Source: Phorcus lineatus (lineage: Eukaryota; Mollusca; Gastropoda; Trochida; Trochidae). From it: a stretch of 64,000 nt of DNA. The notes under the pieces are model-generated. The model did no database searches, was not told the origin of the DNA, and saw only the letters and a program-made list of their open reading frames with translations. Position 1 is the stretch's first letter. Each line of letters starts with the position of its first letter. Shown in pieces: positions 10,858 to 62,600 of this stretch. The position numbers were made by a program, and so were the translations under genes. Where the stretch lies: contig OV121093.1 in the NCBI GenBank assembly GCA_921293015.1, positions 29,274,622 to 29,338,621 on the forward strand, in the 5' to 3' direction.

Positions 10858-12012
10858 ATGTTCTCATTTTATTTGTTATTTTTAACATCATTTACGGTGA
10901 TGGGGATAGAGCATTATAAACAAGTTAAATTCATCCGCAGATTTCCTTTAAATGTCTCAAGTGATGATCATTTGAAGACGACTAAATGTGGAACATTGCT
11001 CCAGTGTGCTTTAGCCTGTCTATCTCTGTCCGGCTGTTGTATCGTGGATATTAAGTCAGGGGATCTGTATGCAACACCAGGGGAAGGTCTGAAGGATGTG
11101 GTTCAATTGGTCAACTTCCTAAAGCTAGCTCCAACGTCCTCGCCCGATACCAAGGGAAATCTGAATGATCTGGCACTTCAGAAAATCAAAGGAAATCTGA
11201 AAAATTCTGCAATTCAGACAATTGTGTTTGTTGAAAAAAGAGGGAATACTAGGCCACTTCGTATAGGGACATTTAAACCTGACACCAGTTCGTCCCTTGA
11301 AACAGACATAAGAGTGGAGGGTCGTGTGTTTTCAGTTCTTTACCATCGGCCAACCCACACCGTATACTGGTCCTGTAAGTCTGGTATACGAGGACAGGTG
11401 CTTGAGACTGGATCAAAATCCTTTAAACATTGTAAAACCCCTGCACGGCACATAGCTATTCACCAGGTACAGATGTATTACACAAAATCAAACAGGATAT
11501 ATCGTAAACCATTGAACTCCAAACAGAGGGCAAAGATAAAGATCCCATTCATCACTGAAACATCTTCAACTATTGAAGCACTAGAACTTGACAATGACAT
11601 TCTCTTTTGGACACGCAAGAAATATGGAAATAATGAAATTATGTATGCACAACTTCCCCTGAAGTCCAAAAAGAATATACCTCAAATCAGAGCTCGTCCT
11701 ATGGTTTGTTTCGATGTCTGGACATTTGAGAACTTGAGGAGGTACACTTGGATAACCAACGACAGAGCTGAGGCACATGTCTGGATCACAAAGAGCAGCT
11801 TGACATACCGATATCACTGTGGCGCCATTCAGAGAGTGAACGGGACACTTCACTCAATAAAGGTTTATCAGTCGTACTATTTTGTTTGCTATGGAAGTGA
11901 AACCAAGGCCATTAAAAGAAAACTTTTCAGAAATAACTGTAAATCAGGAAATGAAATTGACTTGCAATATGGAACTATCTCAACATCGCCAGCAGTTTTT
12001 ACATTTGTATAA
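10858..12012 (+). CDS. Family 1: secreted PAN/apple-like plus beta-propeller protein, 384 aa, intronless
   Basis: An open ATG-to-TAA frame of 384 codons. Residues 1-16 (MFSFYLLFLTSFTVMG) look like a signal peptide, so the product is probably secreted. A Cys cluster at C44, C50, C54, C60 and C61 within KCGTLLQCALACLSLSGCC resembles a PAN/apple module; this is a pattern match, not a proven domain. From about residue 120 the protein shows beta-propeller-like strands with YWTD-type words: VYWS (169-172), LFWT (239-242), YTWIT (286-290). Later Cys lie at 173, 192, 274, 311, 334 and 351. A likely polyadenylation signal AATAAA is at 12114. A decayed paralog is at 25845-26823. No exact family or ligand is recognised. 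Purifying selection is suggested only by the long intact frame. Confidence 0.8.
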   Translation: MFSFYLLFLTSFTVMGIEHYKQVKFIRRFPLNVSSDDHLKTTKCGTLLQCALACLSLSGCCIVDIKSGDLYATPGEGLKDVVQLVNFLKLAPTSSPDTKGNLNDLALQKIKGNLKNSAIQTIVFVEKRGNTRPLRIGTFKPDTSSSLETDIRVEGRVFSVLYHRPTHTVYWSCKSGIRGQVLETGSKSFKHCKTPARHIAIHQVQMYYTKSNRIYRKPLNSKQRAKIKIPFITETSSTIEALELDNDILFWTRKKYGNNEIMYAQLPLKSKKNIPQIRARPMVCFDVWTFENLRRYTWITNDRAEAHVWITKSSLTYRYHCGAIQRVNGTLHSIKVYQSYYFVCYGSETKAIKRKLFRNNCKSGNEIDLQYGTISTSPAVFTFV

Positions 12013-12113
12013 ACAGTAATGAATGGCACCAAGCACAGAATACATGGACCAAGGCGAGTGTATATCAACTGAAATTCCAATAATTAACCGTTTCAAGAAT
12101 TATTTTTATTCCT

Positions 12114-12119
12114 AATAAA
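12114..12119 (+). terminator. Candidate polyadenylation signal of the family 1 gene
   Basis: AATAAA about 100 bases after the stop codon, followed by a second AAATAAA-like word. The position suits a short 3' UTR. Confidence 0.5.
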
Positions 12120-12174
12120 ATAAATGAATTCTTTCGTTACTCTTTACATACAGCTATTACCATTACCATTAAAT

Positions 12175-12850
12175 CTGATCCAATTTTTTTTTATAAATCA
12201 ATGATGATAAAGGATGTTATGAGAACAGTTAAAGGGACAGCATAAAGCCAATTTGAGCATGTATAAGCTTTTTCATAATTATTTTTCATAATAATGAAAA
12301 ATGTTAAAATACCACACATTTAATTATTACCCTACAGTTTTGTTTGGCTGATGTCTGCTGATATAATACTCGTCATTTTACTGATTGAATTCATAGTTTT
12401 CGTGAAGAACAAGTTGGATGCTTGAAAAGTGGAATTGCCATCTTCATCTGAGAATCAATGTTTCATCCTAATATACTGGACACAAGACTAAAGAAATCTT
12501 GTAAACAGATTTCCTGGCTAATTTAGAAGTATAGATATTAGATATTTTCTGACCTTTCCAAACTATGTTTGTCTTTGAATTCTCTTGATCCTAATTGGAG
12601 TTGTCAACTGTATCAAGAAGATAACCTGTTTTCTGTGAGGTGTATGTAATGTAATGTGAAGGAAACTCTGGAGAAAGTGAACAAACTTGTCAAATATAGC
12701 TCTGAGGTCTGAAATGTAAACATGAAATAACGTTTTTCTAATGTGATAACATTAACTGTCATCAAGTTAAATAAAATATCCCCTGTGGTCAGAAATATCG
12801 ACGCTGTTATATATGTTATAAAACTGACATGATTACACAATACATTTAGT
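12175..12850 (+). repeat. Family 3 unit relic: 5' flank without its gene
   Basis: This stretch matches the upstream flank of the 60984 gene (about 60090-60750), and more loosely 46320-46770. Shared words include GAACAGTTAAAG.GACAGC, TACAGTTTTGTTTGGC, GATGTCTGCTGATATAA, CAAGTTGGATGCTTGAAAAG and CAGAAATATCGACG. Homology stops at about 12850, before the promoter-proximal bases and gene would begin. It is a truncated duplicate left beside family 1. Confidence 0.85.
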
Positions 12851-12930
12851 CCACCAGCCACTAGGGATCCCCATGCACCCCTACCCCTACCCACCCCCTC
12901 CCCCCCACACACACACCCCACCCCCCGGCC
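12850..12930. repeat. C-rich low-complexity tract
   Basis: Runs of CCCC with ACACAC, immediately after the family 3 flank homology ends. It is a plausible breakpoint-prone or i-motif-forming tract. No gene. Confidence 0.7.
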
Positions 12931-13427
12931 GAACGAACCTAACCTGTTTTTTTATTCTTGTCTTGTCTATTATGCAAATTTGAGGGGTAACAGTGTATTA
13001 ACTGGAATGCAATGTGTCATTTTTTACATATTTCCAAGGGTACCCCCTTTAGAATCATAATCTTGATATCTTAATGTATGTTTAGAAGGTCACTGAGTCC
13101 ATTGACAGACCATGAGTCACTTGTACGAAATTTTAGGTTTCCGACTCTGATCGGTAACAATTCTCTTTTCTCTTCTCATGTATATGTATATCATTTTATT
13201 TTACATTATTTGCACTGAGAGTAGAATTATGAGTACTTGTAACCCTTTTGTGTACGTATGTGTACTTATGAGACACAAATTAAGTATTCAAAGCAAACCA
13301 AGGGACCTACCTTAAATCTACTATCTTTGAAATACACCAACTCGGCCCTGGGAAAAAAACCTTTTTTCTTTTCTCTACAGTTAATGTTTATCATTTTATT
13401 TTACATTATTTGCACTGAGAGTGCATA

Positions 13428-13765
13428 TATGCTATCTGCATATTCAAGTATGTGTGTCGGACACACACCACTGAATATGATAAGGACCAGTCCAGTCAAG
13501 TGTTGAACTGTTTTAACATTAAACATATGTAGTACAAAGCATTTTTAAAATAACCAAGTGTGACCAAAAATGCAAGCAATATAAAATGCAAACGAGAAAA
13601 GCTTTTCTTTCTTTTTCAAATAGGGTTCGTATGCAATTAACTCAAGCACAAGTATAACTTTTTAGTATCAATCTTTCATATAGATAAACCACATAGTTAA
13701 CCATGCCCTTTCAATAGTGGTATAAGCATATCGATGTAACACAGCTAAAAATCACGAATATATAC
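13428..13765 (+). repeat. Duplicated block, copy 1 (partner 16505-16835)
   Basis: Shares with 16505-16835, in the same order: TGCATATTCA.GTATGTGTGTCGG, GGACCAGTC, TCGTATGCAA, TTAAGCACAAGT, ATAGTTAACCAT and ATATCGATGT. Divergence is visible, so the duplication is not recent. Confidence 0.75.
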
Positions 13766-15807
13766 AATAATCACGGGACACTATTTTGAGAACGAGGCTA
13801 AGAACGCAAACATAGCTATCGAAATAGCGCAGCAACGTTATTGTCTACAACACTGCCTCAGCACTAATGATTTTGATGTTATTACACTGGACTACACACA
13901 ATTTAAGTTCCCAAAGTTAAGCACAAAGAGCAGTGGACCATACAATCAAATTATCTCAAGTGTTTAATCTAATTTCAATAAAGAAAATAGATAATGACAT
14001 CGACTTACAACTGTACTGTATCCTATATTACGGTCTTGGGTAACGGCATTTTAAGATAGAATATATATTTCTGAATGTAAATTGAACAATTATCAGCAAA
14101 ATAAGTAATCAAATTTAAGTTATTCAATCTACATTAGCATAATTATTTGATTATTTACCTATTTATTGAAGAAAACATATAAACTCTGTAAGGTTCGGAC
14201 AGTTTTATTGACCTAATTAACTCCAGTACTGACAGTAAACTCCTGGCTTAAATACTTTTAATTTTCAAATTATCGATATTAATAGTTTTGTAATACACTA
14301 CAAATAATTAGATACTTCTCGGAAAGTGCGAGGACATAATACTTTATTAAAGTTTCTGTTTGAAAAAATAATGACGCATGAGAATTGATTTTATTTTACA
14401 ATCTTCTGAAATCGTTGCAGTTCAAATGAATACTTTTTAAAATATCTTTATTCACTCACCAGATATACAGTTGTAAGTTTAGCATATAATACATCATAAT
14501 TGTCAACTATATCTTTTGGTTGAGAAAAAAATGATCTTGATTAGCAGTGATGATACAGTATTTTGTTTTCTACAATTGCGATACAAAAGCTGAGGTTATT
14601 TGGCGCTTTCTTGAAACCGTTAAATCTACCGTCCGGACAAGTGTTTTTTTAAATTTTACTAGCTATCCCGAAATGGCCTTTAAATAAAATCATATAACTT
14701 ATATGAATAATTAAAAGGACAATTTTTTAACAAACAAATGCATTCATTCCCAGTCTTAGTGGCTGAAGTACAATTGAACAAATGTTTGATCAAGCCCGGT
14801 AGGTTTTTTAATCGTTAATTGCAAAATTAATTTCTATAATAACTCACAGATTATTTTCGACATTGTAAAACATTTTTGTATTAATCTCTGCTTGATTCAC
14901 TCAAGTTGTGTTCGATACATCGATGTTTATGGAATTAAACATCTGCATAATTTTTCATAAATATCACGGAAGCCTAATGGAGTTAAACCTTAAACTTTAT
15001 AGTAAGATGTTCTTCAATGATGTTGCCTTGGACACAAACACAGTTACCTTTTTTCAGGTCCCAAAATTAATCCCATGTTGTTAGACAAAATCTAAGTTTA
15101 ATATTACTCCTTAATTCCAAAGTTCCCTCAAAAGGATATGATTTTGTGTCGGCTCCTTGATAAAATAATTATGATTGGTGAGATTTCACGTGATTCATTT
15201 GAGTTATAAGTAATAATAATCAATAACGATATTGTTTGAAATAATATGAGTCATATAAAGTAGGTCTTAACACGAAAAAAACAAAACGAATTCATTCAAT
15301 TCAATTCAATTACTTTGTAAATCGTATAATTGGCTTGTAAGATACATTCTAAACTTATTTGAAGTTTTCTATTTTTTTATGTGTTGTTTAAGTTGATATG
15401 TATGCGTATCCAGAGCGAAAAATGATGAATAAAGGATCACGTACAGTCCTAAAAGCAACCCTTTGCTAGAAATCGACCTAAAAAGAGGGGTTATGTGGGA
15501 AGCAGATGTGATCATTAGGCAAAGTAGAAGGTTAGGATGGTAATTTTTCAATACTTTTGATCTACTTATCAGGATATAGAATGATTATTACCAATATGTT
15601 TAACAATAAGCCGTGACATATTTTCAATATGAGCACATGTGCACATATCACTTGTCAGAGCACGAGTTACAGCACTATTTTGTCGTCTCTGACGTCATGA
15701 AACCATTGTTCGTGACGTCACTGTAGCGGTCCGTCGCAAGGGAAGCAGGCCATTTTCTGAATATTTCAGTGCCTTTCAAATGGAATAGATTCGGTAATAA
15801 AGAAATC

Positions 15808-15921
15808 ATTACCCTCGAAAGTGTGCCCTATGACTCTTTCAAATACTCACTCTGGCTCGGGTAATAAAAAAATTCACACTCGTTTCGTAAAAGTCATATG
15901 ACACACTTCCTCGGGTTATAA
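15808..15921. repeat. Imperfect foldback around an ATTACCCGAG motif
   Basis: The left arm 15808-15834 (ATTACCCTCGAAAGTGTG..CCTATGAC) pairs with 15893-15921 (GTCATATGACACACTTCCTC then GGGTTATAAT). A third related motif, CACTCTGGCTCGGGTAAT, lies between them. It may be a MITE remnant; no clear target duplication is seen. Confidence 0.55.
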
Positions 15922-16297
15922 TCTCTATATATTATATTACGGCACATACACAGGGCTCCCATTATCTTTCCTCCTAATCAGTAACGTAACGGATATAATA
16001 GCTGCTTTTAGCTTAATAAAACAGTAATGAATACATGGTTAAGTTCATATATTAAGGTATGATCTTTATATAATTCATATAAATGTGTACACACGAATCA
16101 AAACATTTTATCAGCATAATTTGGAGTAAGGTAGAGAACTGCGCAGACTCTTTGTTCATAGCCACTATGATCTCGTTCCTAGCCTTGCTTATTTTGGAAG
16201 ATTACCATAAACAAGACCAAACTAAACTAACAAATAAAATATAGCTTTGAGGCAGGCATAGAGGCTGTCCAGTAACAAGTCTCAGTCTATATTTAGG

Positions 16298-16435
16298 TAG
16301 TTGGATCAAAAACTCAAAATCATAAAAACCTAATTCTTTTACACTTTTCTGATCAAAATACAACTCGTCAGATAACAGTGAACCGTTTTCCTCGAAATTC
16401 TTGGGGGAAAAAAGTAACTTTATTGCCCAAAAAGG
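16298..16435 (+). repeat. Dispersed repeat (inverted partner at 3950-4090)
   Basis: Matches the reverse complement of 3950-4090 with scattered differences. Class unknown. Confidence 0.45.
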
Positions 16436-16504
16436 CGTGTAGTGTTTGCTGTTGTTTTGATCTCCGGATAGTAGCTAGGTCCCATCTCTTTGTTGGTTGA
16501 CCCC

Positions 16505-17614: not shown

Positions 17615-20600
17615 GTTAAGCACAAGAGCAAATAACTAATATTGCTCCGTAAATGACACAACATTTCTTAGAGGGTGATGACATTTCTACCTTACAAACG
17701 TAAATAAATTCTCACAAATTATATTGGTTCATTTGTCCAAAACAAATAGATGATGTATGACTTGTTTTTCAATTGATGTCTACTACTTCATAAAGAATAT
17801 AATCTTTGGCAGTCACTTACCATATAACTTATTCATTCAGCCGATTAGTTCATTTGCAGAATGTCATGTTTTTAATCGGCAGATATCTGCATATCTGTGT
17901 GTTTTACCTGACAATACTTATAATAATTGATATAAACTTTAATATAAAGTCAATAGAAGACTGCTTCCTTTAGAAATCACATTTGGAAAACGATTAGGAA
18001 TAAATGCAATCTTATACCCAATGTAACACTTATCATTAATCGTCATTGTATCCACATTTGTTGAACTAACATATGAATAATACAAAACATCATCTTGCAT
18101 AAGTAATGATGATACAGGTGTAAATCCGATATTGGTTACATTTTTGCACTGATTTTTTATTTTGCCCTGATGAAATACAGCAACGTTTATAAAATGTTCA
18201 CTTCTGTTACGCGAGACAAATACACTCATGTACATATCTCTTAATCTGCGAACAGCCAATGTGTATACACTCTCTGAAGTGTTTTTTATTTCGCGTATGT
18301 TCTTTGAAGGAAGGTCCGCACAAAGGATGCTTGAAATATATAGCGAGTACTCAAGCCAGCAAAACAAATCACCATCAAGACTTAAATATCTTACCCTAGA
18401 GTGTTTTTTACGTTGGTACCATATGTTGTTACGTTCCCCAGTATCTTTTAAAATCTGTCCTATTTTAGCTGCTTGATGCTCAACAAAAGAATAAAAAAGG
18501 TGGTCATTGTACACCTTCAAGTAACACATCTGTTCTTTCTTTAAAAGTGTTTCTTCTGCATTTTGTCCAACATTCTGCTTTGTAATGCCTTTGAAGGTCG
18601 ACCAGAAAAGCGTCTTCGTAGATCTGTCATATTCAAGATCACGTATGAGGCCTGCAATCTTGATTCCAATCTTCTCGGTTATGTTTGCAGTGGCCTTAAT
18701 AACATCTTTCTTCGGTTTTCGTTCAGCATTGCTGACAGCTATGACGAGTTCAGTCTTCTTTGTGTCTTGAACATTTTTCACAAGTATTATTGAACAGGTT
18801 GCATCGCATGAAAGTCCACACCTTATCTTCAATCGCTGCTTTGAATCTTTTTTAATACTGTCATGTTCCTTATGGATTCCCCCAGCGTGGCCAACAGCAG
18901 ACATGTCACAATTCTGCACATCTCCCTGTATCAAGTTGTCCCTCGTACAACAATACTCCTCTGTGGTAAATTTACTGCTGAGTGTTATGCATTGCAGCGA
19001 CCTTCTCAATATCCCTCGAGTGGAAAGTTATCAATTATGTACAAATGATATTTCTTACATGATGATTGCCGTTTTTATGTATTATTCTAAATTTAGCATG
19101 AATCTTAAAATGTTGAAAAGATATTTTCACAAAATATATTAATACCATAAATAAATATTACTGTAATATTTGTGATGGTGAAAATTTTTTGATTCAGTGT
19201 GATATATTATTGCTTGCTGTTTAATAACCTAGAATAACTTTGAAACCAAAATGTGTATTTTGAAAATGTTTGATTTCATCCTCTTGAGAATAAATGCTGC
19301 AGGCAGAAGGTTTTAAGATTTTCTTTAAATCTTGTTTTGATCTATAAGGAGGTCTTTGGAGGTCTGTTCATGGTAGCCATTTCGTTGTCGAAGCTAAAAT
19401 GCTGAATTATATTTTCTAGACGTCTGAAGATCGACCGTTAGTTTCTTCTTTTATATGATTTGTTAACCTTGTTTGAAATGTTGGTCCTTCACTAAACACG
19501 CAGAAACTGATATTTATAGGTTATTATCGGTAACTAAATGATCTCTGTCGATCAGAAATGTTTCGGCTGCTACTGGATATTTTGATGAGTACAATATTTT
19601 ACATAAAAACCTGCAAAAATGTTGATGCTGTATAAGAACCTTATTGGTTATAAAGTACCTTCGAAAAATGTATTTTGGAAGGAATTCGAACCTTATTCAA
19701 CATCATTATGGTGAGCAGTGTCGTATAGACAGGAGAATATAGCTACACCTCGCACATGTGCTATAGCGCTAGCACCAATTTGATGTGGAAGCAGACTTAA
19801 AATCTAATACAACAACGTAAAAGTTGTATTTACGTTTCTAATAAACAAGTGACATTCTTTTAGTTAAAACGACTCCCGAAACCAGCATGTTCTGTGGCTC
19901 TGTTAGTGCAATTTCACGATATTATTTCTCTTTCTGTATTGGAGATAGTGTTCTATACACACTTCAGAGTAAATTTGTACCTAAAGTTCATGTTTTCACT
20001 GACACGAATAACATACTCGTCTTTGCATATTACATGCGTTAAACTCTTAATTACGTGATGATTGATTAAATGCATTTACACAAAATCTTCCCCCTATATT
20101 TGTCCCCCAAAATTATCCTTACTCAAATTTGAAAACACACCACTGATAATCAATCTTATCAAGGTTTTATACTTGATGTGAATATTATTCTTTTATGGCC
20201 GATCATGGACATCACATTCAGTACCGTTACACGTACACATATAAGTAAATGAATTTGTAAAATTCAATTTGTATTTTACAGCTCAAGGCTTCATTTTTCA
20301 AATAGAATCACAAAAACGAACAAAGAGGTTACAGCGAATATTGTTTATAAAGAAAAGGTCAAACCTTTTGAATTCCCCGTGTATATTGTAGCAGAACATT
20401 GAATAAATCCAAAATAAACTTTAAACTGTAATTATATGTAGTTTTTATGGAACCAAAGAGGAAAGAAACAACACAATCCTTTTTACTATGCAAATACTTG
20501 GAATAGTTCAGTATCTATGCAATATCTAATTTGTAAATTCTATTTCAAAGCAAATTAAAAATAACGATTATATATAAAAAAAAGTGTAGAAAATTAAAAT

Positions 20601-22887: not shown

Positions 22888-24140
22888 TTAACTCATTAAC
22901 GCCGAGAGCCGCGTATATGCGTCAAAATAATGAGATCCTCACAGCGAGAGCCGCATATAAGCGTCGGTTAATTAGCAGTTTCTCACAGCGAGAGACGCCA
23001 ATGTGCGTAAATAGAAAGCATCTCTTATTCAGCGAGAGACGCCTATGTGCGTCCGTCGTATAGTATAACAATGAACTTATTTTAAAATCAGTTTAGCATC
23101 CATAAGTGTAGATAACAGTTTCGTAAATAAGATGCTATCCTAAGGAAAGCAATAAGAAATGAAAATCGTTGCTCTTTGTGCAAAAATATGCTACTTTTTG
23201 TAAATGAAAAGCATTCTGCATATGTTGGTCTTGGAAGGGAAAAAAAACACTTTGATAAAAAGGTTTATTAAATCAAATGAAACAATTGTAGTCTTTGTGA
23301 AGTTACCAATTTTGAAACATTGTCAGATACATCTTATTTGTTAAACGCATTGAATTCATATATCTAAGACGAAACGAAAGGAAGCGTTATTATAAACACT
23401 TATGTACATGTGATCATAAATCATTTGATAAGAATTTGAGGCTATTGAAAGTTACACTTTGATTTTAACTTTACTTCTTGAATGCATCAATGTCCTGTAA
23501 CAATAATAGTTTTAGCATGCACATGGTTTTTTTAACTTCTATAATATCCTTCATAGATCCACGACCCTGTCTGCCATTGAATGGATACATGCACATGTTA
23601 AATTATTAGAGTTGACAACGTCCCAACAGAATAAATCACTTGGTCAATATTAATAATCATTACATTCGTTAATGTTACGTGCTTTCTCTTAAATCGGGAT
23701 ATCATCTCTATAAATCCTTAATTATAATTCAGATAGTTGAAATACCGACACAACGTATCCACTCAACACGATGTCTAGATATGCAGTATTTGTATTTACA
23801 AATGAAAATGCATATAAATCAACGTATGTGAAAATACTCTTTGAGCATGTTTATGAATTGAAATCGGAAAAACCGCAAAATATCAACTCAAAGGTGAAAT
23901 ATCACATGTTATATTCCTGTAAAGTATCAATATTCAGCACCTGCATCTATCTGCACGAAACTATAAAACAATCAAGACTTTATGGCACAAGGCTAGACAG
24001 TGTCCGGTCAACTAAGGCCCTCAAAGGCCCCCGCGAAGAGACGGGTTCTTTGAGTTAATTGGTCTCGCGACAGCGAGGAGTGTCTGTGGTCAGTGGCCCA
24101 GGCGTTGAGCCGTGAAGCTGGCTCGGCGTTAATGAGTTAA
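22888..24140 (+). mobile_element. TTAA-flanked DNA element, copy 2 (piggyBac-like non-autonomous candidate)
   Basis: Same inverted ends and subterminal repeats as the copy at 110-1291, in the same orientation, with TTAA at 22888-22891 and 24137-24140. The flanks differ from those of copy 1, so the two are separate insertions and not one duplicated block. By eye the copies differ at only a few percent of sites. Copy 2 keeps about 72 bases (about 23527-23598) that copy 1 lacks; they lie between short GCATGCACATG/ACATGCACATG repeats. The internal 95-codon frame differs from copy 1 mostly at amino-acid-changing sites, which argues against a working protein. Confidence 0.75.
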
Positions 24141-25157: not shown

Positions 25158-25640
25158 GAATGCCTCTCTTTCTGTCTATGTCTCTTGCTCTGTGTCTGGT
25201 CATGTTGCTCTGTCTCTTTGCCTATGTCTGTCTCTCTGTTTATGTCTCTTTGCCTATGTCTGTCTCTCTTATTATGTCTCTTGCTCTGTGTCTGTATCCA
25301 TGTTGCTCTGTCTCTCTGCCTGTGTCTGTCTCTCTTTTTATGTCTCTTGCTCTGTGTCTGTCTCCATGTTGCTCTCTCGCTTTGCCTATGTCTGTCCCTC
25401 TGTTTATGTCTTTTGCTCTGTGTCTGTCTCCATGTTGCTCTGTCTCTTTGCCTATGTCTGTCTCTCTGTTTATGTCTCTTTGCCTATGTCTGTCTCTCTT
25501 ATTATGTCTCTTGCTCTGTGTCTGTATCCATGTTGCTCTGTCTCTTTGCCTATGTCTGTCTCTCTGTTTATTCTCTTGCTCTGTTTCCGTCTCCATGTTG
25601 CTCTGTCTCTTTGCCTATGTCTGTCTCTCTGTTTATGTCT
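25158..25640 (+). repeat. CT-rich minisatellite, 66-bp unit with 98-bp variants
   Basis: CATGTTGCTCT landmarks occur at 25201, 25299, 25365, 25431, 25529 and 25594, giving spacings 98-66-66-98-65. The 98-bp units carry an extra half-unit (TATGTCTCTTTGCCTATGTC). Because the 66-bp period is a multiple of three, several frames stay open on both strands and give long Ser/Leu/Cys-rich or Arg/Glu-rich translations. These are repeat artefacts. Confidence 0.9.
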
Positions 25641-25844
25641 CAAGTCCTTACATAAGTTACCATTATTATCAATATTCAATTACTAATGTTCTTTGAGATA
25701 TGTGATATCGTTTACACGTCCTATTTTCGTCCGGTATATATTTTCCAATAACACATTAACATGAAACAAGTTTTGTTGTTTAACACTTGAAAGCGCATCA
25801 TTACCATATACCTGCCTGTTTCAAGACATTTAAACAGAGTGTTC

Positions 25845-26823
25845 TCATGTTATTTATTATTTTTAACTTCATTGTTTGTGTTGAGGCTAAAGCATCATCT
25901 GCTGTTTTTTACTCAATGTCTCTTGTGATGGGTATTTGAAGACAACGAAATGTGAAACATTACTCCAGTGTGCTTTAGCCTGTGTTTCTCTATCCGGCTG
26001 TAGTATCGTGGATGTAAAGTCAGGGGATCTGTATGCAACACAAGGGGGAAGTCTTAAAGATACAGTTCAATTGGACAGCTTCCTAAATCTAGATGGAACG
26101 TCCTCGCCCAATACCAAGGGAGATCGGAATAGTTTCGCACTTGAGACAATCCAGAGAAATCTGAATTCAACAATACAGTCCATCATTTTTGTAAGTCTGG
26201 TATCCGAGGACAGGTGCTTGAGACCGGCTCAAAACCTTTTACTTTGTGAAACCCCTGCACGCACTTCGATTATAAATCAAGTGCAGGTATATTTCACTGA
26301 CTCTCACAAGATATATCGTCACCCTTTTGACTCGAAAGAAAACAAGAAAATTTTTTACACAACTGATAAATCTTCAACACTTAAATCACTAGATCTTGAT
26401 AATGGCATTCCCTTTTGGACACGCTTTAAAGAGAGTCATTTTGAAATCATGTATGCTAAACTTCCCATGAAGACCGTGATGAAAGTACGCCAAATCATAT
26501 CTAGTTCAATGGTTTCTCTCAGCGTCGGGACATTTGAGGACTTAAGGATACATGCCTGGATATCCAAGAGAGAGAGATGGTGCATACTTGGATCACAGAC
26601 AGTAACTTGAAGAAAGATAGACAACGTTGTTCCGTCATGGAGGGAGTGAAAGAAAACATTCCACTCGATACAGATTTATCAGTCCTACTGGTTCATAAGC
26701 ATTGGGCAAATGAGCAAGGCCATTAAAAGAAAACAGGTCGGGAAAGATTGTCAATCAGGAAAAGAAATAGACTTGGAATATGGATCTATCTCAACATCGC
26801 CAGCAGTTTTTACAATTGTATAA
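25845..26823 (+). pseudogene. Family 1 copy 2: decayed PAN/propeller gene
   Basis: Collinear with the intact gene at 10858-12012, including about 110 bases of 5' flank and about 90 of 3' flank. Lesions seen: the start codon is changed (GTGTTCTCATG where the gene has ATGTTCTCATT); a short deletion breaks the frame before the Cys cluster; about 160 bases corresponding to 11231-11390 are lost, so the first propeller strand (VYWS) is gone; and a frame break with stop lies near 26608. The Cys cluster itself (KCETLLQCALACVSLSGCS) and the end TCAACATCGCCAGCAGTTTT are still clear. A 224-codon open piece remains (25936-26610), but it has no ATG at its start and no signal peptide. Confidence 0.85.
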
Positions 26824-32812: not shown

Positions 32813-33857
32813 TGACCTCCATTGGCAATCATACAGGCCATAACCCGTTGACGCATTGATGACGTCAGGGGTGATCCTTTGTCATTCATGTTGGAGACAT
32901 CGTTCCAGTTCTTGAACTGTCATAGGCGGCACCTGTAGTCTTCTTACTTGTCTTTTCAGGTGGTCTCACATGTGCTCAATCGGATTCATGTCGGAAGAGC
33001 ATGCTGGCCATGGTAAAACAACAATATTAGCACTGTGCAAGAAGTCGTTTGTCGGTTTGGCGGTGTGAGGACGTGCATTGTCATGCTGGAAAACGATGCC
33101 TCTTTGGTGTTGGTGGATGAATGGAACGGCGACTGGTTGTAAAACTTTATCCATGTATCTCCGAGAATTCATGTTAACAAGAACAACGACAAGCCTGGTC
33201 TTCGTATCCCCGCAGACTCCGAAAGCCAAACCATCATGCTACAACCTCTTAATACTTGCACTTTCTGAACGCAATTGGGCGCCTAACGTTCGCCAACTCG
33301 CCTGTACACCCGATCTCGGCCATCATTTCTGTCTAGGCAAAACCGACTCTCATCAGTAAACACCACACGTGCTCAATCACGCCTCTGCCACCGTGGAACC
33401 CGCCTGGCCCACATCAGTCGACTGCGTTGCTTTTGAAGGGTGAGAAGTACTCCACGATAGGGTCGACGTGCTCATATGCTATATTGCTGTAGTCTATGGT
33501 ACACAGTGTGTCGACTGATACGATGACCTAACGACGTAGCAGCCGTTGACGTCGCCGTAACCAAACGGATTCTCAGGTGGATAGTCCGTATGTGTCGGTC
33601 TTCTGCGGGGGTTGTGACGCGTGGTCAACCGCTCCTAGGCCTCTCCGATGTACTGCCTGTCTGCCTTAACCGTTGCATAAAATTTCACATCAGTTGCTGT
33701 AGTGCAATGGCGGTGTTCGTCGCTCCGTGTTCTGACATTCCGACAACTCTTTCTCTTTCAAACGTGGCATACTTTTGGGGTTTTTCTTACTACAGTAACC
33801 CTAACGCTTCGCTTTTTTACAGTTTATGTGTGCACATGTAATTGGTGTTTCATGAGA
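32765..33857 (-). mobile_element. Decayed Tc1/mariner transposon
   Basis: On the minus strand from an ATG at 33770 (MPRLKEKELSE), pieces of a Tc1-type transposase can be read across several frame breaks. They include the first catalytic Asp in VFTDESRFCL, the second in VFQHDNARPHTA and a third region PWPACSSDMNPIEHM. In the last, the spacing to the usual DD34E Glu is plausible. The C-terminal end IANGGH lies near 32820. Possible terminal repeats are seen at both sides (TTACAGTTAATATGT..ATGTGTTGGT near 32770-32805, and TTACAGTTTATGTGT..CATGTAATTGGT near 33818-33850). No intact transposase frame remains. Confidence 0.85.
32966..33229 (-). pseudogene. Tc1-type transposase fragment (DDE core)
   Basis: The longest open piece of the decayed transposase, about 87 codons. 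It holds RRYMDKVLQPVAVPFI, HDNARPHTA and WPACSSDMNPIEH, all standard Tc1 landmarks. Its own start is not a real start codon context; it is a fragment of the longer broken gene at 32800-33770. Confidence 0.85.
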
Positions 33858-34639: not shown

Positions 34640-37600
34640 TATGCTCAACAGCATATTTTAAAAATTGCTCAGTAAATTACATAACATATCTTAAAGGGTG
34701 TTGACATAGTTATCTTACAAACATAATTCAATTATCACATATCATATTCGTCAATCTGACAAAAACAAAGAGATGATTTAAAACTTGTTTTTCCATTGAT
34801 GTTAACAATCTACTACTTCATAAAGGCTTTGATGTAATCTTGGCAGTCACTTACCATGTAACTTATTCATTCATCCGATTAATTCATTTGCAGAATGTTA
34901 TGTTTTTAATTGGCAGATATCTGCATATATGTGTGTCACCTGACATTACATACAATAATTGATATAAACTTTAATATAAAGTCAATAGAATACTGCTTTG
35001 TTTAGAAATAACATATCGAAAACGATTCAGAAGAAAAAGAACCTGATCCCCAATTTTACACTTATCATCAATCGTCATTGTTTCCACATTGGTTGAACTA
35101 TAATATGAATAATACAAAATATCATCTTGCATAAGAAATGATTTGATAACTTTTGATCCGATACTGGTAACATTATGACACAGATTTATGATTTTGCCTT
35201 GATAAAATACAGCAACGTTTATGGAATGTTCACGTCTTTCACGCGAGACAAAGACAGTCATGTACATATCTCTTAATCTGCGAACAGCCAATCTGTATAC
35301 ATTTCCTGACATTTTTTTAATTTCTCTAATGTTCTTTGAAGGAAGGTCCGCACAAAGGATACTTGAAATATGTTGCGAGTACTCAAGCCAGCAAAACAGA
35401 TCACCATCAAGACTTAGATATCTAATTCCAGAGTGCTTTTTACATTGGTACCATATGTGGTTAGGTTCACCAGTATCTTTTGCAATCTGTCCTATCTTAT
35501 ATGCTCGACGCCCAACAAAAGAATAATAAATGTTGTCTTTGTACACCTTCAAATAATGCGTCTTCAATTTCTTTAAAAGTCTTTCTTCTGCCTTCTGTCC
35601 AACAGTCTGCTTTGTAATGCCTGTTAAGGTCGACCAGAAAAGTGTCTTCGTAGATCTGTCATATTCAATATCACGTACTTGGCCTGTAATCTTGATTCCA
35701 ATCTTCTCGGTTTTGTTTGCAGTGCCCTTAAGAACGTCTTTCTTCGGATTCTGTACTGCATCGCTGACAGCCATGACGAGTTCAGTCTTCTTTGCGTCTT
35801 GAACATTGTTCACAAGTATTATTGAACAGGTTGCATCGCATGAAAGTCCACACCTTATCTTCAATCGCTGCTTCGAATCTTTTTTAAAAACTGTCATGTT
35901 CTTTATGGATGCCACAAGTGTGGTCAACAGCAGACACGTCACAATTCTGCACATCTCCATGTTTCAAGTCGACCCTCGTATAGCTCCTCGTACACTCCTC
36001 TGTGGTAAATTTATCGCAGAGTGGTATGGATTGCAGCGACCTTTCTTAATATATCTCAACTGGAAAGTTATCAATTATGTACAAACAATATTTCTAACAT
36101 GATGATTGCCTTTTTTATGTATTATTCTACATTTAGCATGAATCTTAAAATGCTGAAAATATATCTTCACAAAATATATTAACACCATAAATAAATATTT
36201 CTGGAATATTTGTAATGGAGAAAATGTTTTGATTCAAGGTGATATATTATTGCTTACGGTTTAATAACCTAGAATAACTTTAAAACCAAAATGTGTATTT
36301 TGAAAATGTTTGATTTCATCCTCTTGAGAATAAATGCTGCAGACAGAAGGTTTATAGATTTTCTTTATATCTTGTTTGGATCTATAAGGTCTTTCAGAAG
36401 TCTGTTCATGGTAACCATTTCGTCTTCGAAGCCAAAATGCTGATATATATTTCTAGACGTCTGAAGGTCGACCGTTAGTTTCTTCTTTTATATGATTTGT
36501 TATTCTTGCTTGAAAGGTTGCTCCTTCACTAAACACTCAGAAACTGATATTTATGGTTTATTATCGATATAACTAAACGATCTCTGTCGATCAAAAATGT
36601 TTCAGCTCTTACTGGATATTTTGATGTTTTATAAATACAATATTTTACATAAAAACCTGCAAAAATGTTGATGCGGTATAAGAACCTTATTGATTATAAA
36701 ATACCTTCGAAAATTGTATTAAGGAAGGAATTCGAACCTTATTCAATATTAAAATGGTGAGCAGTGTCGTACAGACAGGAGAATATAGCAAAGAGTAGCG
36801 ACCCCTTAGCTACACCTCGCACAAGTCCTAAAGCGCTAGCACAAATTTGATGTAGAAGCAAACTTAAAATCTAATAAAACAACGAAAAAGTTTGATTTAC
36901 TTTTTTGATAAACAATTGACATTCTTTTAGTGAAAACGACTCCCGAAACCAGCGTGTTCTTTGGCTCTGTTAGTGCAATTTCACGATATTATTTCTCTTT
37001 CTGTAGTGGCGATAGTGTTCGATACACACTTCAGAGTACTTTCGTACCCAAAGTTCATGTTTTCACTGTCACGAATAACATCTTCCTGTTTGCATATTAC
37101 ATGCGTTAAACTCTGAATTACATGATGATTGATTAAAAGCATTTACACAAAACCTTCCCCCTACCTTTGTCCCCAAAATTAATCGTATTTAAATTTAAAA
37201 ACATACCATTGATAATCGATCTTATCAAGGTTTTATACTTCTTGTGAAAATTGTTTTATATGGTCGATCATGTACATTACATTCAGTAGCGTTACACATA
37301 CACATATAAGTAATAAAATGTGTAAATTTCAATTAGTATTTTACAGCTCATAAACGAGCTTTCATTTTCAAGATAGAATTACAAAAATGAACAAAGAGGT
37401 TATAGCGGGAATGAATCTTTTGAATTCTATGGTATATTGTAGCAGAACATTAAAGAACTCAAAAATAAACTATAAACTGTTATTATATGTAGTGTTTATG
37501 GAACCAAAGAGGAAAGAAAATACGTTGACAAAACAAACCTTTTTACTACACAAATACCTGAAATAGTTGAGTCCCTATGCAATATTTAATATGTTAATTC

Positions 37601-46992: not shown

Positions 46993-48609
46993 ATGGAGTT
47001 TTACATGTTATTCTCTGTGTGGATCATTGTTTCTTTGCTGTCTGGTGTCAAGAGTAATGAAGACATTGAGCAGCTTAATGACAGAGTGGATATTATCGAA
47101 AGTACGACTGATATTCTGTCAGAAAGATTTGCTGCATTTCAAAACAAGATGTTGAGTGATAAAGCTGATATCATGAACAATCAGGAAAAAAACATTCTCA
47201 AGATCAAGACTGGTCTAAAGAAGACCATACGGCGATACATCACTGAGTCCCTGTCCGATATACTGAGAGACGAGTCTGTAGAAGACTTGATCCAGTCTCG
47301 TGTTCTCTCCGAGGTGGGGCATCTCAAACGTGCAAACCATCAGATGAAGAGAGAACTTCATCAGATGAGGACATCCCTCGTACGAGTTGAGGAGGACAAC
47401 AAGGTGTATAGAGATGGTCTCCAGAGAGGTGAGCGACAACACATTGAAATGCCCCAAATTCTTGTAAAATCTGAACTCTTAACATCTGAATTAGCACGTC
47501 ATGATCGACAAATCAGAGAACTTAATCACGAACTTAGAAACACGAAGGATTCATGTCGACTGCCATCTAAAGCTATCAATAAAGAAATAAATCAACTACG
47601 TGATTTGTCTACATTACTGAAATCAGAAAATCTGACAAACAAGCTTGCAAGATATGATCGTCAAATAAATGAACTCAATCTAACTCTAAGAATACAAAGT
47701 GATTCATGTAAATCAAGGAATTCTACAATCAATAAGGAACCTGATTCAACGTTAAATAAAAGACAAACAACTTCAGTGTCCCCGACTACTACTGCTGCTG
47801 TACCTAGAGCAATAACAACATCTAAACCAAGCACGGAGAGACCTCGGATCCTTTTAGTTCCAGTAAATAGAGGTGACCATTTTCAGATGCAACAGTTCAA
47901 CATCAACACAAACTCTTTTGACAAATATCCTCATCTGTCTCTTAAGTATTGTTTGTCTGCACTCTATATTTCCAAAATAAACTCTTTGTTGATTAGTCTT
48001 AGCAACCCCAGCAGGATCATCATCTCAGAAATGAGCACTTCTAAAAATAAAACAATAAAAGACAATGCTTATACAATAGGAATGGCAGCTGATGAGGAAA
48101 GGGGAATTGTATTCCTCACAACATATAATTCTACTACATCAATCAGAAGAATGACATTACACGGTGAAAACTTAACAACCTTAGTGGACTTAGATTATGG
48201 TATGTTTATTGGTACTATAGCGATAAACCCAACAATAAAGACTATATATGTTGGTCATTATGTTAAACTGGTCAAAGTATTCTATGATGGAACTGGTTTG
48301 AAGACACTTGACACTGGTTCTGGCATCTACGGAGTAACTCTGGACATCACCAAGGGTCTCCTGTACTACAACAAGGGGAATAAGCTGATGAAAATGTCAT
48401 TGTCTTCAGAGATTACTAGTGAAGTGACACAGTTTAACTTTTATATTTGGAATCTGATTTTCTACCAAAATAAAGTGTATTACTCGAGCATGAGAGAATC
48501 CCCAGGTGTACTGGGAGTAGTGGATGTAGAACATAACGGTGTGTCTAGAACACTTCAGACAATGAATGTGTCTGGTGTGACACATTACTCCATTTGTTTG
48601 ATTCCGTAA
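46993..48609 (+). CDS. Family 3 gene 1: secreted coiled-coil plus beta-propeller protein, 538 aa, intronless
   Basis: ATG in context CACGATGG, ending in TAA at 48607-48609. Residues 1-21 (MEFYMLFSVWIIVSLLSGVKS) form a signal peptide. Residues 25-235 are heptad-rich and charged, a likely coiled coil. Within it, a block of about 51 residues occurs twice (155-188 and 207-239), each with ARxDRQIxELN and ending DSC (C188, C239), which could form interchain disulfides. A Thr/Ser/Pro linker (about 249-285) follows. Residues 286-538 read as a YWTD-like propeller: GIVFLTT, SIRRMTLHGENLTTLVDL, KLVKVFYDGTGLKTLD, GLLYYNKGNKLMKMSL and KVYYSS. The architecture recalls olfactomedin proteins (coiled coil then propeller), but the olfactomedin signature itself is not seen. 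C320 and C535 could close the propeller. The paralog is at 60984. Confidence 0.85.
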   Translation: MEFYMLFSVWIIVSLLSGVKSNEDIEQLNDRVDIIESTTDILSERFAAFQNKMLSDKADIMNNQEKNILKIKTGLKKTIRRYITESLSDILRDESVEDLIQSRVLSEVGHLKRANHQMKRELHQMRTSLVRVEEDNKVYRDGLQRGERQHIEMPQILVKSELLTSELARHDRQIRELNHELRNTKDSCRLPSKAINKEINQLRDLSTLLKSENLTNKLARYDRQINELNLTLRIQSDSCKSRNSTINKEPDSTLNKRQTTSVSPTTTAAVPRAITTSKPSTERPRILLVPVNRGDHFQMQQFNINTNSFDKYPHLSLKYCLSALYISKINSLLISLSNPSRIIISEMSTSKNKTIKDNAYTIGMAADEERGIVFLTTYNSTTSIRRMTLHGENLTTLVDLDYGMFIGTIAINPTIKTIYVGHYVKLVKVFYDGTGLKTLDTGSGIYGVTLDITKGLLYYNKGNKLMKMSLSSEITSEVTQFNFYIWNLIFYQNKVYYSSMRESPGVLGVVDVEHNGVSRTLQTMNVSGVTHYSICLIP

Positions 48610-48650
48610 CTACAATCAACATGGTTGAACTGATGTTCTCTTTGTATTAT

Positions 48651-53045: not shown

Positions 53046-53086
53046 TGAGTTCAGTCATTTACACACATCTTGTAGTTGGCAAATAT

Positions 53087-53484
53087 CAGATTGAGATTCA
53101 GATTGAGATTCAGATTGAGATTCAGATTGAGATTCAGATTGAGATTCAGATTCAGACTGAGATTCAGATTGAGATTCAGATTGAGATTCAGATTGAGATT
53201 CAGATTGAGATTCAGATTGAGATTCAGATTGAGATTCAGACTGAGATTCAGATTGAGATTCAGATTGAGATTCAGATTGAGATTCAGACTGAGATTCAGA
53301 CTGAGATTCAGATTGAGATTCAGATTGAGATTCAGATTGAGATTCAGATTGAGATTCAGATTGAGATTCAGACTGAGATTCAGATTGAGATTCAGATTGA
53401 GATTCAGATTCAGATTCAGATTCAGATTCAGATTCAGATTCAGATTCAGATTCAGATTCAGATTCAGATTCAGATTCAGATTCA
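53087..53484 (+). repeat. GATTGA/GATTCA satellite array
   Basis: The first 314 bases or so alternate GATTGA and GATTCA (12-bp period). From 53401 the array becomes pure GATTCA (6-bp period). GACTGA variants at 53155, 53239, 53287, 53299 and 53371 are spaced by multiples of 12. Because the period is a multiple of three, two plus-strand frames and one minus-strand frame stay open for over 140 codons, giving Ile-Glu/Gln, Arg-Phe and Asn-Leu polymers that are not genes. Confidence 0.95.
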
Positions 53485-57020: not shown

Positions 57021-57139
57021 TTAAAAAAAAATAAAAACACAATAGGTTTAACTCCTAAATGTATAGCTTTAAACGCAACGGGCCACTGCCTTTGTCGTTG
57101 AAATCTGAAGTAAATTTTGCAATTGTTTTCCTCATTGGC

Positions 57140-57203
57140 CTTAGCACAGAAAGAGGTTAAAATCTTAGCGCTGAAAGAGGTTAAAATTTTAGCACAGAAA
57201 ATG
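57140..57203 (+). repeat. 24-bp tandem repeat, about 2.7 copies
   Basis: CTTAGCACAGAAAGAGGTTA plus AAAT, repeated at 57140, 57164 and 57188 with few changes. Confidence 0.8.
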
Positions 57204-59364
57204 TAAGCCGTGATGTCAAGGGAATAGTTTGAAATCTTTTCGAATCGGCCGTGACGTTGTGAAATTTAGACTGATATAAAACTGAAAAAAACAGTTTTAA
57301 TTTATTGCATTTTTCCCCGATAACTGATACTCTTTGGAGTTGGATTGTTCTAAATCAAATTTAAAGCTATTATATTCATTCCAACTATATATGCCGCTGA
57401 TTACGAAATATCACGTTTATCCCCTAAATTCAACCCATTAAAACTATGCTGATACGAGTTCATATATACAGTAAACGGTGCACGAGAAATGGTCTTTTAT
57501 AATTAACTTTCCGAACGAACACTGCCTTTCTGAACCAAATCTATAGATTAACCTGACATATAACACTTTAATGTTACACATAGAAGCGAAAGCTAAGTCG
57601 CAAAAACCAAATACACTAAAAGCTCTCACTAAGAGGGCAGGCTGTTGTTTGATAGTGCACTGGTGATATAGTGAGTGTGAGATGCCCGTGCACACGTTGA
57701 GGAGTCGTAATTGTGTAGGCAAACTGTGAAGTACAGAGTTAAAATATTCGGTTGACTTAATATTACCTTCAGTAAAAAAATTTAATAAAAGTATTGTAAC
57801 TAACAAAAGGTTGATACTTCCATGTACGCTCGTTTGTTTTATTCATATAATAAAGTTCCACACTCACTCAAATCACTACATTAAACGCCGTCAATCAGTA
57901 ACTGTTACAGTTTTTTCCAAACAAAAAGGAGTTACAGTAGGTTATACAAAATAGTCAGTAATCAATTTTCGTGGATACACTGCAAACTACGTGCGTCATT
58001 TTGTAACGTTATCTGTTCGTTATGGACACGACTTCTTGGCAGAGAACTGTTGCCATGTTAGCGGGCACGGTGACTTTATACTTGTGAGGGATTTGAGCCA
58101 AATGGTAAAAAAGGAAAATGTATCGTCTGTCAGCCAATCAAAAACGATTATTTTGCTTTGATATAAGTTTATTTTGCAACTGTGTAAAATTATTATCGAA
58201 ATTAAAAATTGAGAGTTTGTGTCAATAGTGGATATCATTCAGACAGTTGCCAATCATATTTGAATTGATTATGATATCAATACAGATAGAACTGATATAA
58301 ATATGCATATTTCTTTTATAGCAAAATCGTGAGCACTTTGAAGACATATAAAATATGAATAGATTATTTGTTAAGATCTTTGTTTGATGATATCAGTTAC
58401 TCAATGTCAATATTCCCCCACATGACTTTAAATTTCACCCGTCTCTACCACTGGCTATTAAAACCTTGCTTCTAAACTGTCAAAACGTTTACTAGGTGAT
58501 ACTGTTCATACCTTGAAGAAAATGCCATTTACATCGATTAAAGAAACAACATCAGTTTTGCTCAGTCAAGTTCGTATATGTACTATCGACAGAGTGTTCT
58601 TTAAAACAAAATTCAATTATGTTTACAAAGCTTGGGCAGACCCAGTTTTTTAATTAAACAACTTTAAATATAGTAAATGTTAGTGAACGAGGTATTGTTT
58701 GGCGTCGATAAGTCGATAGTTCAGTCTAAGTCGTTATATGCTATACACCTACACTTGTGTTAAATTCATGGAATAAAACTTTTGTTCACACACATACATA
58801 AACATTTATAATTATTGTTTCTATATAATTTTATTATAATTTATCAATGATTTGTACATTTTTAATCAAGTCTATATGTTCGTCCGGGTGTATTTTGAAC
58901 TCAAAGCAGCGCATGTGATTGCGAGTCGGACCGAACCCTACCACATCAAACAAATTACCGGAGACCGTACAGCCGGGTGTCTGACTGTGATATCACTGAC
59001 TGTATCATGTTCAGTCGTGTACTGCAATGCACAAGTGAGTTTTATATTTCCACTCTCACCTTGACTTGGTTTACAAAGACAGTCATGTACACACTGAATG
59101 TAGTTTGCGAGTACAGAGGTTATATTTTTGAGAAACAAGACTATTTTCAGAATATGAAACTCAACAATAACAAGCTGTTGAATAATGAATTAGTTGTTTT
59201 GTAAGTGCTGAAAATTTAGAAAGTAATGGGAAAAATGCGCCAGTGTGTTGATTTCATCCAATTCAAAATCAAAATTTTGATTGCATCTTACAAGTCTTGA
59301 AATATTTTGATTTGTGTCAGTGTGATTGACAGGGCTGAAATGAACATATTTAATTTTCAACACT

Positions 59365-59515
59365 GTTCCTATGCACCACAGTTTGGTGTGAAAACATCAG
59401 TCAGATGAATTGACACTTTGCACCGATTGACCCGCCTGCTAAGTTGGCGAGTTGGCGAGTTGACTCGTGTTGTTTTTGCACGTGTTGCATGCTTTTCACG
59501 TGCAACTGGAAGCTC
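59365..59515 (+). repeat. CACGTG-rich repeat, copy 5 (about 1.5 kb upstream of the 60984 gene)
   Basis: CACCACAGTTTGGTGTGAAA, TTGACACTTTGCACCGATTG, ACCCGCCTGCT, GTTGGCGAGTTGGCGAGTTG, TTGCACGTGTTGCATGCTTT and TCACGTGCAACTGGAAGCTC. Two CACGTG palindromes and a short GAGTTGGC duplication. Confidence 0.75.
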
Positions 59516-60983
59516 TTTTTATTTCTTAGGCAACTGAAATAGCAGGCACAGTTGACGTTTCTATAAAACAAATTGTTGATAGTTGTGCAGAAATAGCACG
59601 TTTTTGAGAACAAAATAATTGTTTCCAATTGCAAGATGATGAATCAAAAGAATAAACTTAAACAAACGGTACACGATTGACAACATCTGATCTTTTCGAA
59701 GTGTTGTCTGAGTGAGGAACTGGTAGCAAGTTTTACTGCTATAATTAACTTTGTGTATATTCTTATTTTCGTGACTTAGATAACAGAGTAAACAATACCA
59801 GCATCTTAATATTATGCCAAACGTGACATATTGTCGATATAGTTTTTGCTCCCATTAAGGATTACAAATAAAGAGGCATCCGACATCCATTCTTCAGTCA
59901 ACTCTCTTCCTTTTTGACTTCTTTTCTAGAACTACTGACTGAAATGATGAATATAATGTATAGAGTTGGTAACCATGTGGATACTAATCAGGGTCACAGG
60001 ACCACACCCTTTTAAATGAATACAAAGCTTGCTCTTTAGACAGTTTAATGGCAACTAGAAACTACTTATTTACATTAAAGTAACATAAAATCTGACCCAA
60101 TTTTTTTGATAAGTCAATGATGATAAAGGAAGTTATTAGAACAGTTAAAGTGACAGCAAAAAGAGATTTTATACAAATGTTAAAAAACTAAATGTTGAAA
60201 TACCATAATTTAATTATTACTATACAGTTTTGTTTGGCCGATGTCTGCTGATATAACAAACGGCATTTTACTGACTGTATTCATAGTTTTTGTGATAAAA
60301 CAAGTTGGATGCTTGAAAAGTGGAATTGCCACCTTCATCTGAGAATCAATGTTTCATCCTTAGATACTGGACCCAAGATTAAAGAAGCTGAAAGCTTGTA
60401 AACAGACTTCCTAGCTAATTTAGGAATATACATTAGATTTTTGCTGACCTATTCAAACTGTATTCGTCTTTGAATTCTCTTGATTCTATTTAGAGTTGTC
60501 AACTGTATCAAGAAGATAACCTGTTTTCTGTGAGGTTTATGTAATGTATTGTTGTAGGAAACTCGGGAGAAAGTGAACAATCTTGTTTTGTGTGGCATCT
60601 TTACAAATATAGCTCTCAGTTCTGAAATGAAAACATGAAATAACTTGTTCTACTGTGTTAACAATAACTCTAATCATGTTAAATAAAATATCCCGTGTGG
60701 TCAGAAATATCGACGATCTTTTATATCTTATAAAACTGACATGATTACACAAGACATATTATGTCAGTAAGCTAAACATATCTAGATATACAAGGTCGAT
60801 TCAACAAGAACTGAGGCAACGTGATGACCTGGATATTTGCCAACTACACGCAGTGTGTACCTGACTGTCCTTGTAGATAAGTCAAGGTTGTTTTGTGAAT
60901 ATAATGCACACATGAAAGGGTGACATAACATTGTGTACTGTACGGCATAGAGTAAACAGCTCGGCGTTACTGTTTCATACACC

Positions 60984-62600
60984 ATGGAGTTTTACAGTTT
61001 ATTCTCTGTTTGCATCATGATTGTCCTTATGTGTGGTGTCAAGGTTCATGGAGACATTAAACCGCTCAATGACAGGGTGGATGTTCTTGAAACTGGATTG
61101 GAAATTCTGTCAAAAAGATTTGAATTTGAAAGACAAATTTTGACCGAAAAAGTTGATCTCTTTTCTAAACAAGTACAAAAGATTCTCAAGAGCAGGACAG
61201 ATCCGGAGACGAAGATTCGACGATACATCTCTGAGGCCTTATCCGATATACTGGAAGACGAATCCGTTGAAAAACTAATCCAGTCTCAGGTTCTCTCCGA
61301 GGTGGGGCACCTCAAACGTGCCAACCATCAGATGAAACGAGAACTTCATCAGATTAGGACATCCCTCGTACGAGTTGAGCAAGACAACAGGGTGTGTAGA
61401 GATGGTTTCGAGAGAGGTGAGCGACAAAACACTGAAATGTCCCAAATTCTTGTAAAATCTGAACTCTTTACATCTGAAATAGCACGTCATGATCGACAAA
61501 TCATGAAACTTAATCACGAACTTAGAGACACGAAGGAGTCATGTGAACTGTCATCTAAAGTTATCAATAATGAAATACATCAACTACGTAATTTGTCTAC
61601 ATTTCTGAAATCAGAAACTCTGAAAAATACGCTTGCATGGCATGAACGTCAAATTAATAAACTTAATCTAACTCTGAGAGAACAAAGTGATCCATGTAAA
61701 TCAACGAATGTTACAATCAATAAGGAACCTGATTCGGCGTTAAATACAAGACAAACAACGTCAGTGTTCCCGACTACTACTGCTGCTGTACCTAGAGCTA
61801 TAACAACATCTAAACCAAGCACAGAGAGAAGTCGGATCCTTGTGGTACCATGTTGGAGCAGTAATCGTCATCAGATGCAACAGTTCAACATCATCACAAA
61901 CTCTTTTGACAAATATCCTCATCTTTCTCTTAAGTATTATCGGTCTGCACTCTATATTTCCAAAATAAACTCTTTGTTGATAAATCTTGACAACCCAAGC
62001 AGGATCATCATCTCAGAACTGAACACTTCCAAAACTGAAACAATAAAACACAATGTTAATACACTAGGAATGGCGGCTGATGAGGAAAGGGAAATTGTTT
62101 TCCTCACAACATGGCGTCCTACTAAATCAATCAGTAGAATGTCATTACGTGGGGAAAACTTTACTACCTTAGTGGACTTATCAGGTTATGGTGGTTATCC
62201 TCGTGCTTTAGCTATACATCCAACAACAAACACTATATATGCTGGTAATGGTGATAAACTGTTCAAAGTATTCTATGATGGAACTGGTTTGAGGACACTT
62301 GACACTGGTTCTGGGATCAACGGAGTAACTCTGGACATCACCAAGGGTCTCCTGTACTACAACAAGGGGAAGAAGCTGATGAAAATGTCCTTGTCTTCAG
62401 AGATTACTAGTGAAGTGACACAGTTTAACTTTTATATTTGGAATCTGATTTTCTACCAAAACAAAGTGTATTACTCAAGCGAGATCAAATCCCCTGGTGT
62501 ACTGGGAGTAGTGGATGTAGAACATAACAGTGTGTCTAGAACACTTCAGACAGTGAATGTGACCGATGTGTACACCTACGCTATTTGTTTGATTCCGTAA
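60984..62600 (+). CDS. Family 3 gene 2: secreted coiled-coil plus beta-propeller protein, 538 aa, intronless
   Basis: ATG in a strong context (CACCATGG), stop TAA. Same length and layout as the 46993 gene: signal peptide (MEFYSLFSVCIMIVLMCGVK), coiled coil to about 235 with the duplicated Cys-ending block (C187, C238), Thr/Pro linker, propeller from about 286. The N-terminal coiled coil (residues 30-75) is clearly diverged from gene 1, while residues 440-525 are almost identical. It has an extra Cys at 138, and at the start of the propeller a Cys at 290 (VVPCWSS) where gene 1 has Val; gene 1's C320 is Tyr here. C535 near the C-terminus is kept. Two open, equal-length copies suggest both are maintained. 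Function unknown; secreted oligomeric adhesion or recognition is an inference. Confidence 0.85.
   Translation: MEFYSLFSVCIMIVLMCGVKVHGDIKPLNDRVDVLETGLEILSKRFEFERQILTEKVDLFSKQVQKILKSRTDPETKIRRYISEALSDILEDESVEKLIQSQVLSEVGHLKRANHQMKRELHQIRTSLVRVEQDNRVCRDGFERGERQNTEMSQILVKSELFTSEIARHDRQIMKLNHELRDTKESCELSSKVINNEIHQLRNLSTFLKSETLKNTLAWHERQINKLNLTLREQSDPCKSTNVTINKEPDSALNTRQTTSVFPTTTAAVPRAITTSKPSTERSRILVVPCWSSNRHQMQQFNIITNSFDKYPHLSLKYYRSALYISKINSLLINLDNPSRIIISELNTSKTETIKHNVNTLGMAADEEREIVFLTTWRPTKSISRMSLRGENFTTLVDLSGYGGYPRALAIHPTTNTIYAGNGDKLFKVFYDGTGLRTLDTGSGINGVTLDITKGLLYYNKGKKLMKMSLSSEITSEVTQFNFYIWNLIFYQNKVYYSSEIKSPGVLGVVDVEHNSVSRTLQTVNVTDVYTYAICLIP

Follow-up and report, generated by a model that had tools for sequence, protein, structure and literature searches.

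The window, i.e. the whole 64-kb stretch of DNA that was analysed (contig C25:29274622-29338621), contains eight open reading frames (ORFs) of at least 150 aa with an ATG start: five genes and three ORFs located in simple-repeat arrays (Table 1). The five genes, all proposed by a sequence-only reading, are confirmed at their positions and are named A (384 aa), B (329 aa) or C (538 aa) after their type. Their description as single-exon genes with leader-like N-termini is supported, single-exon status applying to the coding region (a 5' UTR intron is possible) and leaders being called by eye on the sequence. The leader of B1 lies in a frame different from that of its ORF. Dead copies, also announced by that reading, are present: A2 carries a stop and deletions, another relic retains the 3' end of a C gene, and B1 is counted with them for its out-of-frame leader. 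The 100 kb on either side of the window harbor intact A3 and C3 genes, two C fragments and a C4 copy interrupted by a single stop.

Table 1. Features of the 64-kb window (contigs are always named as such in the text; C1 and C2 are genes)
Feature	Position	Strand	Description
~1.2-kb element, two copies	110-1291 and 22888-24140		97.5% identical
C relic	7620-7765	+	3' end only; found by tblastn and blastn
Tandem array	8105-8796		88-bp unit, 7.9 copies, 95% match
A1	10858-12012	+	Intact, single-exon, 384 aa; leader, three-Cys motif, propeller-like half
C2-upstream duplicate	12164-12845		Matches 60081-60757; blastn 82%
B1	17939-18904	-	321-aa open frame, leader out of frame
B1 leader	18924-18847		Different frame from B1 ORF
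66/98-bp array	25160-25641		Long ORF, not a gene
A2	25906-26820	+	Broken A copy: stop and deletions; tblastn 45% to A1
DDE transposase remnant	32966-33238		Pfam DDE_3, E 1.1e-6
B2	34971-35960	-	Intact, single-exon, 329 aa
C1	46993-48609	+	Intact, single-exon, 538 aa
C1 residues 25-240	47065-47712	+	Helical, coiled-coil-like stalk (tentative)
C1 residues 257-281	47761-47835	+	Ser/Thr-rich linker (sequence)
C1 residues 282-538	47836-48606	+	Six-bladed YWTD-type propeller
B2-upstream duplicate	50334-51183		Matches 36263-37192; blastn 80%; without B coding sequence
12-bp array	53086-53482		Long ORF, not a gene
C2	60984-62600	+	Intact, single-exon, 538 aa; 74% identity with C1
C2 propeller	61824-62597	+

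Besides the genes, the window carries repeated sequences, including a pair of elements of about 1.2 kb that may be a recent duplication or a transposon. In the 400 bases downstream of each gene, runs of A reach at most 6, which gives no support to recent retroposition.

The C-terminal half of the C proteins displays both the six-bladed fold and the sequence profile of YWTD propellers. Hmmsearch with a profile of 43 C sequences retrieved LRP2 at E-values of 1.2e-13 and 4.9e-13, and the closest known propellers are those of LRP2, LRP4, LRP6, LDLR and nidogen. The profile match and the fold demonstrate that the 538-aa family has a six-bladed YWTD propeller; a propeller-like half had initially been proposed from its YWTD-type words. 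The Pfam Ldl_recept_b model matched four of the 43 C members at E ≤0.1 (best 0.035), a blade model made from nine YWTD repeats scored shuffled sequences no differently from the proteins, and the score of an internal-repeat test was reached by 9/60 shuffles for C and 13/60 for B, neither being significant, and by 1/60 for A. Upstream of the propeller, a two-sequence AlphaFold prediction of full-length C1 (pLDDT 38) placed helices in residues 25-235 with low confidence. Residues 25-90 show a significant hydrophobic helical period (3.68). The period exceeds the 99% shuffle level in residues 151-240 (3.40), is absent from residues 91-145 and is under the 99% shuffle level when residues 25-240 are taken whole. 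A coiled coil in the stalk is likely. The C3 stalk weakly matched Noelin-1 (E 0.17), and the Ser/Thr-rich linker shows low variability among the 30 C copies compared.

The propeller halves of A and B share 24.8% identity over 129 aa (E 4e-8). Four divergent single-exon members, found on contigs C1, C5, C12 and C32, were aligned with A and B, and three cysteines (motif C-x3-C-x(3-5)-C) are invariant in all eight A/B-type sequences. Hence, the modules distinguished earlier as 'PAN-like' and 'three-Cys' look like variants of one motif, and the kinship of A and B leaves two superfamilies instead of the three families first described. The PAN label is not confirmed: no Pfam PAN match was obtained at E ≤1 for the five window proteins or at E ≤0.5 for the eight members. 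A search of A and B against the PDB gave no match, B1 matched DUF5050 (E 0.012), and hhalign aligned the A/B and C profiles weakly (E 0.016), which is suggestive of a relation between them. The propeller that had been attributed to all the genes stands for the 538-aa family, whereas in the 384- and 329-aa families, this fold is suggested by sequence.

The gene cluster described in the window is real but not confined to it and extends far outside. The genome comprises 958 Mb in 74 contigs, and an exon recognised as LRP5/6-like marks it as that of an animal. C1 used as query yielded at least 85 matches in it, i.e. 80 main ones (80 scored of 428 candidates) and five short N-terminal pieces of already counted C copies. 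The 80 scored copies are distributed on contigs C25 (56 copies), C15 (18), C29 (4), C9 (1) and C16 (1); 62 of them have no stop across the matched range and 18 do. With B2 as query, at least 122 matches were found on 14 contigs (122 scored of 208 candidates), some being pieces of one broken copy. Together, the dead copies of the window and the C copies with stops genome-wide support the birth and death that had been proposed, and the window appears as a small section of a cluster of single-exon genes that spans megabases and evolves in this way.

On contig C25, C copies lie on the + strand at 27.7-29.5 and 17.8-18.3 Mb and on the - strand at 30.3-31.5 Mb, and close B copies are mostly antisense to the C genes around them, with an exception at 18.05 Mb. 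The strand switch of the C and B copies resembles the outcome of an inversion of a very large segment. On contig C9 (51.92-51.95 Mb), a C-like gene is adjoined by B-like genes. On contig C39 (12.44-12.61 Mb), three B copies, each with one TAA, share an identical break (between rows 1-93 and 96-329); a broken copy thus seems to have been duplicated further.

The copies of the cluster could be decaying genes under relaxed constraint, and both the stops in scored C copies and the near-neutral ratios of the whole-gene pairs C1/C2 (pairwise ML omega 0.79, p 0.16) and A1/A3 (0.85, p 0.40) point in this direction. Including B1/B2 (0.65, p 0.07), three of the six pairs are, taken alone, compatible with neutrality; the others are C1/C3 (0.62, p 0.007), C2/C3 (0.68, p 0.02) and C3/C4 (0.67, p 0.024). 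However, seven paralog comparisons contain 11 coding gaps, every one a multiple of three, whereas of the 44 gaps in nine comparisons of flanking DNA, 12 are and 32 are not. Moreover, neutral simulations predict 2.8-4.2 stops per copy and, at half the pairwise divergence, a probability of 0.01-0.06 per copy of having none. The near-neutral values of some pairs are whole-gene averages in which fast loops are offset by constrained strands. Neutral dN/dS between paralogs, named beforehand as part of what would speak against the sequence-only reading, therefore does not hold overall despite these pairs. For the following comparisons, 43 C genes were chosen as stop-free and nearly full-length (L059 ends before its final residue and stop codon; the start Met is missing from L037-L039 and L064 as they were cut), so that '43/43 open' reflects this choice and 62/80 is the unselected figure.

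Variability of the C propeller is concentrated in the D-A and B-C loops, which we take to lie together on the side where ligands usually bind. Loops were taken from DSSP on the model, except in blade 2, where they were assigned manually, and the loop mask was defined after the entropy plot was known. Entropy among 30 contig-C25 copies averages 1.53 bits in B-C and 1.27 in D-A loops, and 0.43 in A-B loops, 0.49 in C-D loops and 0.53 in strands. The mean observed for the top mask (1.39) was reached by none of 256 circular shifts, the best being a one-residue shift (1.28). Furthermore, 23 of the 30 most variable sites fall in D-A/B-C loops and seven in strands, mostly at loop edges.

A codon-likelihood analysis along the tree of these 30 copies gave an omega of 1.66 (p 4e-5) for the top loops (D-A and B-C, 55 codons), with 1.82 for B-C alone and 1.48 for D-A alone (p 0.027). 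The corresponding values are 0.47 for the bottom loops, 0.62 for the strands, 0.55 for the N-terminal half, 0.84 for the whole propeller and 0.38-0.81 for six shifted masks. These data demonstrate positive selection on the D-A/B-C loops in the contig-C25 clade. In the contig-C15 clade (eight genes), the ordering is the same and top loops are not above 1 (top 0.88, p 0.59 versus 1; bottom 0.28; strands 0.47). The two clades comprise 30 and 8 of the 43 C genes, L037-L040 and L043 being in neither.

This excess could be an artefact of tract exchange or of loop alignment: some gaps do lie in loops, and exchange is present, with 37 of 422 pairs exceeding the global threshold when all sites are used, although only 4 of 422 do so with third positions. 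Since exchange occurs, the selection test was repeated without a tree on 12 sister pairs (24 of the 30 copies), and the excess persisted (top 1.69, 95% 1.27-2.21; bottom 0.47; strands 0.54). It was also kept when blade 2 and gapped columns were removed (1.73, p 2.7e-4), which makes an artefact highly improbable. Decay is very unlikely as well, since relaxation can yield neither a likelihood omega above 1 at this significance nor such a pairwise lower bound, and the strands and opposite loops are constrained.

We therefore favor, with a probability of about 0.55, the explanation that the megabase birth-and-death cluster encodes secreted recognition proteins whose propeller face is under positive selection. 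The helical stalk would probably multimerise the 538-aa protein, the Ser/Thr-rich linker would hold the propeller out, and the D-A and B-C loops of the propeller would form the face offered to ligands that vary among copies or over time. If ligands differ between copies or change, positive selection is expected on the face residues and constraint on strands, opposite loops and stalk. The copies themselves would be born by duplication, exchange tracts and die. From the leader, stalk and linker we infer secretion and oligomerisation, and from the fast face ligand binding, i.e. direct contact with changing partners, possibly with an immune role. Such a face is what one would anticipate for a recognition repertoire engaged in an arms race, and selection on one side of the propeller backs the extracellular recognition put forward in the sequence-only reading.

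Considering the copy number, defence against non-self is the likeliest pressure and non-self recognition the likeliest role. Selection confined to the presumed contact face would suit any coevolving partner, and the fast face could track one from the same species rather than microbes, as in gamete or self/allo-recognition. Nevertheless, dozens to hundreds of copies over many contigs seem too many for such a function, which we consider unlikely; to our knowledge, no gamete protein family has so many copies. Matrix, mucus or adhesive proteins, i.e. multivalent stalked propellers with matrix partners and copies kept for dosage, would agree with the presence of nidogen, a matrix protein, among the closest folds. 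Dosage, however, does not account for an omega that exceeds 1 in a single set of loops alongside constraint elsewhere, and this function appears quite unlikely.

Secreted recognition proteins of this kind can be compared with several known systems. C proteins share the six-bladed fold and the profile of YWTD (LDL-receptor class B) proteins, i.e. LRP2, LRP4, LRP6, LDLR and nidogen, but consist of one propeller on a helical stalk, encoded by a single exon in at least 80 copies; no EGF or LDL-A module was seen in them, and no transmembrane tail was seen by eye. Expanded secreted recognition families are known in invertebrates, for instance bivalve C1qDC proteins and snail FREPs. Like them, C has many duplicated genes, a leader, a helical region and a C-terminal binding domain (putative in C); its scaffold is, however, a YWTD propeller, and no Pfam match to C1q or fibrinogen was found at E ≤1 in the five window proteins, nor was there one among the 43 C members. 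Olfactomedin-domain proteins have the same plan of a stalk and a C-terminal propeller, but olfactomedin propellers are five-bladed, and no olfactomedin domain was matched in the five window proteins (Pfam) or among the 43 C members.

A protein database searched with three queries gave no relative at E 1e-3 (for one query, among the best 7993 candidates by shared words); this database seems mainly microbial, so that the result says little about animals. Nothing was found in the viral and prokaryote contigs scanned, NCBIfam gave weak unrelated matches only and Rfam none. No description of such a family was found in the open-licence PMC literature searched, and a family built on this plan is not known to us from other work. 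An expanded secreted recognition family is of a known kind, while the YWTD scaffold and the face-specific selection look new.

The averaging of fast loops and constrained strands implies that a whole-gene dN/dS near 1 should not be taken for decay. Recognition in invertebrates relies on expanded germline families, the scaffolds known to us being Ig, fibrinogen, C1q, C-type lectin and LRR folds. We tentatively propose, as a possibility somewhat short of even odds, an undescribed animal repertoire that uses the YWTD propeller as variable scaffold, a germline counterpart of VLR/FREP. Its single-exon genes, which may number in the hundreds, would fall into two linked superfamilies, one of stalk-propeller and one of three-Cys type, and one propeller face would be diversified by positive selection and tract exchange. 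If true, this would extend the list to the YWTD propeller, a scaffold with a binding face already well characterised in LRP6 and nidogen. Residues to probe and copies for expression are thereby identified, which would allow the ligands of this repertoire to be tested directly.
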